The position numbers were made by a program, and so were the translations under genes. This document shows positions 22,097 to 55,688 of a DNA stretch of 64,000 bases, piece after piece. Below the pieces are notes generated by a model, which searched no databases, was not told the origin of the DNA, and saw nothing but the letters and a program-made list of their open reading frames with translations. Numbering within the stretch: position 1 is the first letter of the stretch; every line of letters begins with the position of its first letter. The stretch comes from Croceivirga radicis (GTDB lineage: Bacteria; Bacteroidota; Bacteroidia; Flavobacteriales; Flavobacteriaceae): contig NZ_MTBC01000003.1 of NCBI RefSeq assembly GCF_002072105.2, forward strand, positions 310,001 through 374,000, given 5' to 3'.

Positions 22097-22592
22097 AGCT
22101 ATGTTTTTGTATTAATTTTTCACGTACCGCCTTTCTTGCCCTAGAGAGGGTTACACGTACGGCGGTAGCCTTCATTCCTAACATTTCTTCTATTTCCTCA
22201 AAGTCATAGTCTTCTACATCTCTTAATTGTAATACCATTTTTTGTTGCTCGGGCAATTCTTCCATAATTTTCTCTACCCAACTTACGCTATCGGCTTGCT
22301 CTACACTACGTTGCAAATTATGTTGGCCATCTTCATAATTGCTATGTACCAATTTTAAATTGCCTGCCTGCTTAGATTTTAAACGGTCTAGGCAAAAGTT
22401 TTTTGTCATGGTCATAGCAAAAGCTTCAACACTTTTATAACTTCCCATCTTGTCACTTTTGTTCCATAATTTCAAAAGTACTTCTTGGGTGGCGTCTTCG
22501 GCTTCTTCTTTAGATACCAACAACCTTTTAGCCATTCTGTAAAGCTTATCCTTAAAAGGCATTACGGTTGCTAAAAATTCGTTTTGTTTCAT
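22083..22592 (-). CDS. ECF-type RNA polymerase sigma factor
   Basis: The 169 residues have region 2 at about 10-75 (LYRMAKRLLVSKEEAEDATQ, EVLLKLWNK, AFAMTMTKNFCLDRLKS). Region 4 follows at about 110-160 (MEELPEQQKMVLQLRDVEDY, FEEIEEMLGMKATAVRVTLS). It overlaps the anti-sigma-like gene and leads an operon of five genes. A promoter of ECF type lies about 50 nt upstream (22642-22671), which suggests that the factor activates its own operon. Confidence 0.93.
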   Translation of the reverse strand: MKQNEFLATVMPFKDKLYRMAKRLLVSKEEAEDATQEVLLKLWNKSDKMGSYKSVEAFAMTMTKNFCLDRLKSKQAGNLKLVHSNYEDGQHNLQRSVEQADSVSWVEKIMEELPEQQKMVLQLRDVEDYDFEEIEEMLGMKATAVRVTLSRARKAVREKLIQKHSYGIG

Positions 22593-53618: not shown

Positions 53619-53699
53619 TACAAACGTTCAACAAGAAATTTTAGACTTCGTTTTAAACCTTTTCCTAAATTTAAGGTCAAAGGGTAAAACATCATTTTT

Positions 53700-54242
53700 T
53701 TGGTTGTAGAAGAAACATTAGTTGCAGAGCTAAAAAACAAAGAAACCCAAGGTAAAGCCTTTGAGGTGTTGGTAGACCAATACAAAGAACGATTGTATTG
53801 GCACATTCGTAGAATTGTGTTAAATCATGATGATGCAGATGATGTGCTACAGAATACATTTATCAAAGTATACCGTAACATTGAGGGTTTTAAAGCCAAC
53901 AGCAAATTGTATTCTTGGATGTATCGCATAGCAACAAATGAATCGCTTACTTTTCTAGATAAAAAATCTAAAAAACTAGGAAAAAGCACAACAGAAATGC
54001 AAGAGTATTTGGTTGAGAATCTAGAGGCAGATGTCTATTTTGAGGGCGATGCTATTCAGCTTAAATTACAGGAAGCCTTGGCTACCCTGCCCGATAAGCA
54101 AAAGTTGGTTTTTAATATGAAGTATTTTCAAGAAATGAAATACGAAGAAATCTCGGAAATTTTAGAAACATCGGTAGGTGCCTTAAAAACATCGTACCAT
54201 TTGGCATCCAAAAAGATTGAAGCGTACCTTAAAGCGGATTAA
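53700..54242 (+). CDS. ECF-type RNA polymerase sigma factor (non-ATG start)
   Basis: The 180-residue sigma factor has region 2 (FEVLVDQYKERLYWHIRRIV, DDADDVLQNTFIKVYRNIEG, LYSWMYRIATNESLTFLDK). Region 4 follows (EALATLPDKQKLVFNMKYFQ, YEEISEILETSVGALKTSYH). An in-frame TAA at 53685-53687 and the absence of ATG or GTG before region 2 leave TTG at 53700 as the most likely start, with rare ATT or ATC as alternatives. It is followed by a membrane partner and a Spy-like protein. No GTAAC-CGTC promoter was seen upstream. Confidence 0.9.
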   Translation: MVVEETLVAELKNKETQGKAFEVLVDQYKERLYWHIRRIVLNHDDADDVLQNTFIKVYRNIEGFKANSKLYSWMYRIATNESLTFLDKKSKKLGKSTTEMQEYLVENLEADVYFEGDAIQLKLQEALATLPDKQKLVFNMKYFQEMKYEEISEILETSVGALKTSYHLASKKIEAYLKAD

Positions 54243-54275
54243 ACCAAAAGAATGGATAAGCGTCTATAAAGTATA

Positions 54276-54806
54276 ATGAAAAAAGATAGTAATAAATCGC
54301 ATAAATTACCAAAGGGCTACTTTGAAAACTTTAACCAGCGGTTAATGGATAGAATAGCAGCAGAAGATGCTACTACGGCTAGCACTCTAATTCCAAAAAC
54401 TGATGGTTTTACCGTTCCAGAAGGATATTTTGAAGCTGTACAACCAAAGGTTTCCAAGGCTGTTGCCACAAACAAAAAAACAAAGGTAATTCCGCTTTTA
54501 GGTTTAAAAAACTGGATGGCCATTGCCGCTTCTATTGCTATTGCCATAGTAACGTACTTGGGTATAAATAGAACTAATACCAATAGTATAGCGTTAGATA
54601 GCTTAAGTAATGCAGAAATTTTAGCTTATTTAAACAACCAAACAGATGTTACTACTTATGATTTGGCAGAGTTGGTAAATCCAGATAATATAAACACCAA
54701 TTTATTCTCAGAAACCCAATTGGAAGAAGAACTGATATTAGACTATTTTGATGAAAATTTAGACGACCTAGATACTATAGATTTTGAATATGAAGACTAT
54801 GAATAA
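54276..54806 (+). CDS. Single-pass membrane protein with P-x-G-Y-F-E repeats, probable sigma-factor partner
   Basis: The 176-residue protein carries two copies of a short motif in its cytoplasmic part: KLPKGYFENFNQRLMDRI at about 10-27 and TVPEGYFEAVQPKVSKAV at about 46-63. A membrane helix follows near 80-97 (NWMAIAASIAIAIVTYLGI), and the extracytoplasmic tail is very acidic, ending DTIDFEYEDYE. I recognise no named family with certainty. The position after an ECF sigma gene and the topology suggest an anti-sigma factor. It overlaps the next gene. Confidence 0.78.
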   Translation: MKKDSNKSHKLPKGYFENFNQRLMDRIAAEDATTASTLIPKTDGFTVPEGYFEAVQPKVSKAVATNKKTKVIPLLGLKNWMAIAASIAIAIVTYLGINRTNTNSIALDSLSNAEILAYLNNQTDVTTYDLAELVNPDNINTNLFSETQLEEELILDYFDENLDDLDTIDFEYEDYE

Positions 54807-55227
54807 GATATTATTGTTGATAACCGTGGTGCTTTTCTCTTTAACCTATACCAAAGCACAAGGACCAGGTAGAGAAAAGATTAAGGCGCTCAAGGTGGCC
54901 ATGATTACAGAAAAATTGAACCTTACACCGGATGAAGCAGAAAAATTTTGGCCGGTTTACAACAAGCATGACGAAGCCATGGATGATTTAAGGCACAAGG
55001 AACGAAAATACTTTGGCAAACGAAGCGAAGACGTTACCAATATTTCCGAGGCAGATGCTACCAAACTCTTGGCAGAGTTTGATATGGTAAACGAACAGCG
55101 TTATAAATTAGGTTCTAATTTTGTTAAAGAACTAAAGAAAATATTACCTAATAAAAAGATAGTGCTTCTATTTAAAGCTGAGGAAGAATTTAAGCGTAAG
55201 TTATTACAACGCATGCGTCAGCGCTAA
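54790..55227 (+). CDS. Spy/CpxP-like periplasmic protein
   Basis: The 145-residue protein has a signal peptide (ILLLITVVLFSLTYTKAQ). A helical domain follows with KVAMITEKLNLTPDEAEKFW, PVYNKHDEAMDDLRHKERKY and LLFKAEEEFKRKLLQRMRQR, resembling the LTxxQ-type periplasmic sensors and chaperones (Spy, CpxP, CnrX). A heavy-metal-sensor role would need metal ligands that I cannot see. It overlaps the membrane-protein gene by 17 nt from the ATG at 54790, or by 8 nt if the ATG at 54799 is used. It is last in the sigma factor operon. Confidence 0.82.
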   Translation: MKTMNKILLLITVVLFSLTYTKAQGPGREKIKALKVAMITEKLNLTPDEAEKFWPVYNKHDEAMDDLRHKERKYFGKRSEDVTNISEADATKLLAEFDMVNEQRYKLGSNFVKELKKILPNKKIVLLFKAEEEFKRKLLQRMRQR

Positions 55228-55250: not shown

Positions 55251-55277
55251 AAAAGGGGCCAAAAGCCCCTTTTTTTG
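55251..55277 (+). terminator. Terminator of the second sigma factor operon
   Basis: A 9-bp AAAAGGGGC/GCCCCTTTT stem (55251-55259 with 55265-55273) and a 5-nt loop are followed by T residues, 24 nt after the Spy-like gene. Confidence 0.9.
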
Positions 55278-55334
55278 ATTAAACCTTTTTACAGACTAGC
55301 GGTCTTACTAATACAAATCTTTAAAAAAACCGTT

Positions 55335-55688
55335 ATGAAACATTTTAAGAGTTTAATTTTTGTAGTCGTTTTTAGTCTTGGTCTAGCTGTAACACAGGCT
55401 CAAACCACGGTAGTCAAAAAAACCTACCCTAGAAAAGGTACCGTAGTAACCACAATACATAGACCTAATGTAGTGGTACATAAAAAAACCAATTATTACT
55501 TTTCTGATGGGGTTTGGTATACCGCCAGAGGTAAACAATACGTAGTAGCCAATGCACCAATTGGGGTTAGGGTTAGAAGACTACCCAGAACTAGGACCAT
55601 TGTTAAAAGAAACGGAGTTAAGTATTATAAATATAGAGGTGTTTGGTATACCAAAACCGGAAGATATTACACCGTGGTTAACGTGTAA
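55335..55688 (+). CDS. Small basic exported protein with repeated GVWYT units (DUF6515-like)
   Basis: The 117-residue protein has a signal peptide (SLIFVVVFSLGLAVTQAQ). The mature part is rich in Val, Arg, Lys and Tyr and carries two units of the form GVWYT-x2-G-x2-Y-x-VV: DGVWYTARGKQYVV and RGVWYTKTGRYYTVV. The pattern resembles DUF6515. I chose the ATG at 55335 because it directly precedes the signal peptide. It is a single-gene unit between two terminators. Function is unknown, perhaps in the envelope. Confidence 0.75.
   Translation: MKHFKSLIFVVVFSLGLAVTQAQTTVVKKTYPRKGTVVTTIHRPNVVVHKKTNYYFSDGVWYTARGKQYVVANAPIGVRVRRLPRTRTIVKRNGVKYYKYRGVWYTKTGRYYTVVNV

Follow-up and report, generated by a model that had tools for sequence, protein, structure and literature searches.

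A conserved non-ATG start and a second predicted promoter in a flavobacterial ECF sigma/anti-sigma/Spy-like operon: a candidate autoregulated envelope-stress circuit

Introduction

Operons that combine a sigma factor, an anti-sigma factor and a Spy-like protein are an already known kind. In Phocaeicola vulgatus, the sigma/anti-sigma/Spy operon cirY/cirZ/spy, reported in 2026, is strongly induced in colitis; removal of cirZ raises the sigma factor, spy, and two neighbours, and a second spy follows another sigma pair (PMC13114119). In Streptomyces, sigR starts with GTC in 32 of 34 species, and the sigR–rsrA pair is a tested precedent for the logic of holding an anti-sigma factor in excess (PMC5472188). 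Only 6% of the ECF factors of Bacteroidota have the usual class I anti-sigma factor adjoining (PMC7406223).

Sensing of envelope damage in Bacteroidota is poorly known, and the loci considered here give a partner, a promoter motif, and likely targets. Our reading, to which we assign a probability of roughly 0.6, is that the operon forms an autoregulated envelope-stress circuit, in which a second promoter and a non-AUG start of the sigma gene hold the anti-sigma factor above the sigma factor. The promoter copies P1, P2, and P3, the candidate regulon, and the shortage of ATG starts among ECF genes at large are additions to the preliminary description of this locus. We found no published report of a flavobacterial non-AUG sigma start, of a P2-like promoter over the stop codon, of this motif and regulon, or of the class-wide reach of this sigma factor, in a search of openly accessible journal papers.

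Results

Organization of the Operon

The window (the whole stretch of DNA analysed, 64,000 nucleotides) comes from Croceivirga radicis, a marine-type flavobacterium with a genome of 3.6 Mb. The three-gene operon with a terminator described earlier, comprising an ECF sigma factor, a single-pass partner, and a Spy-like protein, is real, and the ORFs match that description; the unit does not end at position 55227 but also takes in P3 and the gene for the DUF6515 protein (Table 1).

Table 1. Features of the operon and its downstream flank (positions within the window).
Feature	Position	Strand	Basis or remark
P1, predicted ECF-type promoter of the sigma gene, TTAAACCTTT-N13-GTC	53653..53678	+	Conservation in orthologs and own-genome site
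Leader predicted for the P1 transcript, 12 nt	53688..53699	+	GTC taken as -12 to -10
ECF sigma factor of 180 aa, starting at TTG	53700..54242	+	ORF, Pfam, orthologs
P2, second promoter copy, over the sigma stop codon (T-TAA-ACC)	54239..54264	+	Conservation in orthologs
Putative anti-sigma factor	54276..54806	+	P-x-x-YF conservation, modelled membrane helix
Spy/CnrX-like exported helical protein, FWPxYN motif	54799..55227	+	Overlaps the 3' end of the anti-sigma gene
Intrinsic terminator, stem and T7	55251..55276	+	Sequence reading and fold
P3, third promoter copy, right behind the terminator	55279..55304	+	Motif search of own genome
DUF6515 exported protein, predicted regulon member	55335..55688	+	Pfam PF20125, E 5.6e-16

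The sigma protein contains Sigma70 regions 2 (PF04542, 52.8 bits) and 4 (PF08281, 54.1 bits) only, both above the Pfam cut-offs, which is the ECF architecture, and its best matches among solved structures are SigW, SigH, and RpoE. Closest among the named records listed are proteins of Croceivirga, Muricauda, and Flagellimonas (84–81%). The sigma factor looks near-core in the class, since a match below E 1e-50 is present in 87 of the 119 genomes sampled (in 95 at E 1e-25, a level that starts to admit paralogs). A further ECF gene lies in the window at 22368–22559 on the minus strand, and an in-frame ATG precedes its region 2.

The terminator folds at −15.8 kcal/mol (z −4.4) and is not among the results of a consensus terminator scan. 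It abuts P3, the end of the operon and the next sigma-type promoter falling within about 50 bases (55251–55304). A scan for sigma-70-type promoters yielded seven, with 7.1 expected.

Start Codon of the Sigma Gene

The in-frame stop codon TAA at 53685–53687 is followed only by the codons AAC, ATC, ATT, and TTT ahead of TTG 53700, and the Pfam match to region 2 begins at residue 24. Of the earlier statement that neither ATG nor GTG precedes region 2, the part on ATG holds and the part on GTG does not strictly hold, as GTG 53766 lies one codon before the Pfam match; this GTG is an unlikely start because 22 residues common to the orthologs would be lost. We concur with the choice of TTG 53700 as the best start, it being the first usable codon after TAA, with TTG or GTG in most orthologs. 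A sequencing error behind the missing ATG was ruled out, as TTG or GTG is likewise present in L010, the nearest relative at 96% identity, and in most orthologs. The RNA fold around the TTG start has a z-score of −0.04 and thus gives no hint of a start concealed in RNA structure.

The ortholog set comprised 110 loci (30 including the own genome, and 80 from named records), 108 of them distinct after removal of the duplicates L073 and L134. With an ATG called whenever the frame contained one from −12 to +6 relative to the aligned start, the sigma gene starts with TTG in 68 orthologs, GTG in 27, and ATG in 13, so that a non-ATG start is conserved in 95 out of 108; a fourteenth ortholog has an ATG at −57. 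TTG or GTG occupies exactly the aligned codon in 80 of the 108. Four of the 13 ATG cases are Prolixibacteraceae or unplaced Bacteroidota records that cluster together on the tree, and among four extra loci of the own family outside the set, two have GTG and two have ATG. The anti-sigma gene starts with ATG in 100 and with GTG in six of 106 distinct loci (L082 and L151 have no anti-sigma ORF under the length rule), and the Spy-like gene starts with ATG in 106 out of 106, the first ATG being taken in both counts whenever one was present.

Outside the family, the sigma gene of the operon starts with ATG in 23 and with GTG in four of the 27 such loci in the class sample (counted among the best 29 loci besides the own one), and ATG is also found in seven out of nine loci from other families of the order. 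With ATG so dominant outside the family, a non-ATG start appears to be a Flavobacteriaceae trait. On the tree of the 108 sigma proteins, at least 20 changes among TTG, GTG, and ATG are required, with ATG needing at least nine, six of which are forced by well-supported branches. By these counts, ATG appears to arise repeatedly yet to remain rare, while TTG and GTG interchange. Retention of the non-ATG start by most relatives suggests that the imbalance between sigma and anti-sigma is deliberate.

Start Codons of Other ECF Genes

A non-ATG start is not specific to this operon, since other ECF genes of the family often do without ATG: 16 out of 40 ECF paralogs have no in-frame ATG before region 2. 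This sample consists of 17 genes from the own genome and 23 hand-picked from the top of the list in other genomes, several of them mutually orthologous; in the own genome, nine out of 17 other ECF genes (L153–L169) lack such an ATG, with an inclination to TTG or GTG. In two further genomes of the family, 11 out of 30 sampled sigma genes have no ATG, two of these being orthologs of the 53700 gene, and three of the 30 resemble primary sigma factors and have ATG. In two genomes outside the family, three out of 29 sampled sigma genes have only TTG or GTG, and one has none of the three codons. Of 41 sampled response regulators whose receiver domain is N-terminal, two lack ATG. The genes scored were the best 30 of 46 and best 30 of 48 sigma matches and the best 30 of 49 and best 30 of 54 response regulator matches, from which we dropped response regulators whose domain is internal (seven and 12) and a single ECF frame that has a long N-terminus. 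The sigma gene L346 (genome G168, outside the family) has no ATG, GTG, or TTG in 45 open codons before region 2, possibly reflecting a non-canonical start or a frame problem.

These counts bear on the alternative that the operon is as described and TTG/GTG is merely common, in a neutral way, among flavobacterial ECF genes or weakly expressed genes, with no role in the sigma/anti-sigma ratio. The frequency of missing ATGs among the paralogs and in the two other genomes of the family, and the repeated codon switches on the tree, speak for this alternative; however, response regulators rarely lack ATG, TTG and GTG exchange with one another and ATG remains uncommon, and the ortholog of the 53700 gene stands well above its paralogs (95/108 against 16/40, Fisher p 1e-8, a value made too small by relatedness of the rows). 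We consider neutrality unlikely, though deserving of attention. Flavobacterial ECF genes in general seem to lean to non-AUG starts, the ortholog of the 53700 gene most of all.

Translation Context of the Sigma and Anti-Sigma Starts

In F. johnsoniae, which initiates translation without Shine–Dalgarno sequences, adenine at −3 and −6 aids initiation, and positions −12 and −13 also matter (PMC6847099). Adenine is found at −3 in 25 out of 80 sigma genes against 63 out of 100 anti-sigma genes, and at −6 in 27/80 against 69/100; the direction is opposite at −12 (63/80 against 19/100) and −13 (40/80 against 21/100). The Kozak-like context is poorer for sigma than for anti-sigma at −3/−6, and richer at −12/−13. 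Moreover, the TTG of the sigma gene may not be weak, because in Streptomyces sigR a TTG start gave more SigR than ATG (PMC5472188). The proposal that the start codon keeps the sigma factor scarce relative to its partner hence survives in part: the conserved TTG/GTG, the −3/−6 context, and the predicted P2 agree with it, and the sigR precedent and the −12/−13 context do not.

Predicted Promoters

P1, as NTAAAC-N17-GTC, is present in 97 of the 108 distinct orthologs, in 90 of them as TTAAAC, and ends 10–52 nt (mostly 17–28 nt) before the start. The GTC box of E. coli sigma-E promoters occupies positions −12 to −10. If GTC has the same placement here, the sigma leader in the window would be 12 nt long, with no Shine–Dalgarno sequence in it, and the P2 transcript would be nearly leaderless.

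P2 starts one base 5' of the sigma stop codon, and TAA forms part of its −35-like box. It was found in at least 84 of the 108 distinct orthologs, a lower bound as L087 and L088 carry a copy further downstream; 80 copies are in the same register, each over a TAA stop, and 24 orthologs have no P2 match in the scanned stretch. The distance from the P2 GTC to the anti-sigma ATG is 11 nt in 37 out of 82 measured cases, and 6–14 nt in 70 out of 82. Judging by position, P2 should drive the anti-sigma and Spy-like genes. The GTC of P3 lies 30 nt from the ATG of the DUF6515 gene, and a P3-like copy is located 51–206 nt behind the Spy-like frame in 15 out of 80 loci of the named records. The base preceding GTC is A or G in 83 out of 97 P1 and 68 out of 84 P2 sites.

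In the 80 loci of the named records (583,356 bases), 128 copies of TTAAAC-N17-GTC are P1 or P2 sites; of the remaining copies, 19 are downstream (two of them P2 copies at a greater distance from the stop), three upstream, one inside, and two on the minus strand. The 40 ECF-paralog loci and the 30 response-regulator loci have no copy, and in 30 further sigma loci the motif is found solely at the two orthologs of the 53700 gene. Gene order, start codon, P1, and P2 are conserved, and the motif is specific. ECF sigma factors typically read autoregulatory promoters that have AAC at −35 and a GTC-like −10 box, and we infer that the sigma factor here reads the motif. In the class sample outside the family, P1 is present in two and P2 in ten of the 27 loci, and a looser search found P1 in five out of nine loci from other families of the order. 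As P2 is also found outside the family, it may be older than the change of the start codon.

Candidate Regulon

The strict motif matches the own genome five times and 11 genomes of the genus 52 times, against zero and 12 matches, respectively, for the reversed control. The relaxed motif gave seven matches in the own genome against six for the control, and since it hardly differs from the control, we drew the regulon claims from the strict motif alone. A search with a variable gap was set aside: of its seven sites, the five with the 13-base gap turned up again in the strict search, and one of the two others has no ORF behind it. In most of 34 fetched loci (matches of the strict motif and of the variable-gap search), the box lies 11–30 nt ahead of a gene for a sigma factor, an anti-sigma factor, or an exported protein.

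Nine further motif-linked proteins were scanned against Pfam: two DUF6515 proteins, a second Spy-like protein that weakly matches Metal_resist and LTXXQ, a Porph_ging protein (GLPGLI-like), an exported DUF3089 protein, a member of the beta-lactamase family, a BD-FAE hydrolase, and two lipoprotein-like proteins that match no family; none of the nine matched a metal transporter family. The second Spy-like exported protein, with the same promoter, is encoded elsewhere in the genome (L039:1501-2001, C2:37818), and similar proteins follow the motif in five more loci of the genus (L047, L052, L060, L061, L063). A lipoprotein-like family of about 290 aa is located behind the motif in L050, L055, L057, L064, L068, L070, and L071, and the two members scanned (L050 and L057) had no Pfam match.

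Putative Anti-Sigma Factor and Spy-Like Protein

The partner protein belongs to no Pfam family. Its orthologs share two P-x-x-Y-F repeats, each ahead of a predicted short helix (15–31 and 51–65), and the model (of low confidence overall, pTM 0.22) has one long hydrophobic helix, 75–102, predicted to cross the membrane and followed by an acidic tail. A neighbour with P-x-x-YF is present in 104 out of 106 distinct loci and, class-wide, in 27 of the best 29. The partner gene is thus adjacent to the sigma gene and its product has a single predicted membrane helix, as in a membrane anti-sigma factor; we infer that it binds and inhibits the sigma factor.

The Spy-like protein has a signal-peptide-like N-terminus, and its start is more likely ATG 54790 or 54799 than TTG 54784; an FWxxY protein occurs in 26 of the best 29 class-wide loci. 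Its Metal_resist match scores 15.0 bits against a cut-off of 29.2, and an LTXXQ match is not listed, so neither of these Spy/CpxP/CnrX families is above its cut-off in the window protein. Among 44 family members, 17 match Metal_resist and eight match LTXXQ at E 0.1 or better (best E 5e-5). CnrX and CpxP fold as a helical hairpin. The model of the window protein is all-helical (pLDDT 90), and structure comparison places CnrX at rank 1 (Z 8.1) and also at ranks 3–5, 9, 10, and 12, with ZraP at Z 7.2 and CpxP at Z 6.9, where a Z of about 8 is within the chance range for helical bundles. Foldseek returned nothing at E 0.001 or better. A comparison of the Spy-like profile with sequences of solved structures gave an unconvincing best hit (glutamate dehydrogenase, E 0.14).

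The metal ligands of CnrX are conserved and include histidines, and the 44 Spy-like sequences have no histidine in invariant or nearly invariant columns, which tells against the metal-sensing idea. A sensor of the CnrYXH type, in which the exported protein would bind metal and act on the anti-sigma factor as CnrX does, is quite improbable for this reason, given also the chance-level Z and the lack of metal transporter families among the nine regulon proteins scanned, although CnrX chains lead the structure comparison and the two-helix anti-sigma factor resembles class II CnrY (PMC7406223).

Discussion

We return to the preferred reading, an autoregulated envelope-stress circuit. The membrane protein would hold the ECF sigma factor via its two short cytoplasmic helices, and periplasmic stress, sensed by its periplasmic tail, would free the sigma factor. 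The Spy-like protein is probably a client-binding brake that reports the state of the envelope. Freed sigma factor would fire P1, and with it the operon that encodes it, P2, which serves just the anti-sigma and Spy-like genes, and P3 (DUF6515), and probably also the few promoters of exported proteins at which the sites are found. As the sigma gene depends on P1 and a UUG/GUG start only, and the anti-sigma gene on P1 plus P2 with AUG, each round of activation would make more brake than accelerator, and the response would be self-limiting, as the anatomy of the operon and its conservation suggest.

A broader and tentative proposition, which may well be wrong, is that Flavobacteriaceae as a whole permanently throttle the translation of their ECF sigma genes by UUG/GUG starts, most strictly that of the class-wide envelope-stress sigma factor. 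There the throttle would go together with an anti-sigma promoter that is sigma-dependent, gives a nearly leaderless transcript, and has its −35 box over the sigma stop codon. It may also respond to the state of the initiation machinery, on ribosomes that work without Shine–Dalgarno pairing. Swapping the start codon offers a one-base test of stoichiometric control in bacteria with such ribosomes.

The least probable alternative is that the true start is a rarer codon, as in infC, i.e., ATC 53691 or ATT 53694, with TTG 53700 internal: both codons are in frame just upstream, and a GTC start is known from Streptomyces sigR (PMC5472188), but they are not kept in relatives, where the frame opens only at −6 (L027), −9 (L023), or 0 (L036), and in most orthologs the aligned codon itself is TTG or GTG.

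By composition, the operon is like cirY/cirZ/spy of P. vulgatus (Bacteroidales), with the same gene order, whereas the regulon described there includes a carbohydrate-binding hydrolase and a LysM/glucosaminidase protein (PMC13114119). It is like sigR–rsrA of Streptomyces in having an odd sigma start and an extra anti-sigma promoter (here a predicted one), which there keep the anti-sigma factor in excess; however, the GTC of sigR is non-canonical and repressed by IF3, while TTG and GTG are canonical start codons, it is probably the main sigma factor that reads the rsrA promoter, while P2 looks sigma-dependent, and RsrA is a redox zinc anti-sigma factor, unlike the partner here (PMC5472188).

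With CnrH/CnrY/CnrX of Cupriavidus, the locus shares an ECF sigma factor with a two-helix anti-sigma factor, here a putative one (PMC7406223), and an exported helical protein whose fold, judged by the model, may be similar; it differs in that the exported protein has no conserved histidine and the anti-sigma factor has the twin P-x-x-YF motif and no Pfam family. Finally, F. psychrophilum SM6 has a flavobacterial ECF promoter with a CGT box, which precedes one sigma/anti-sigma pair, and the genes with ECF promoters there include components of type IX secretion, unlike here (PMC9723704); in contrast to that CGT box, the base before GTC in the promoters predicted here is mostly A or G.
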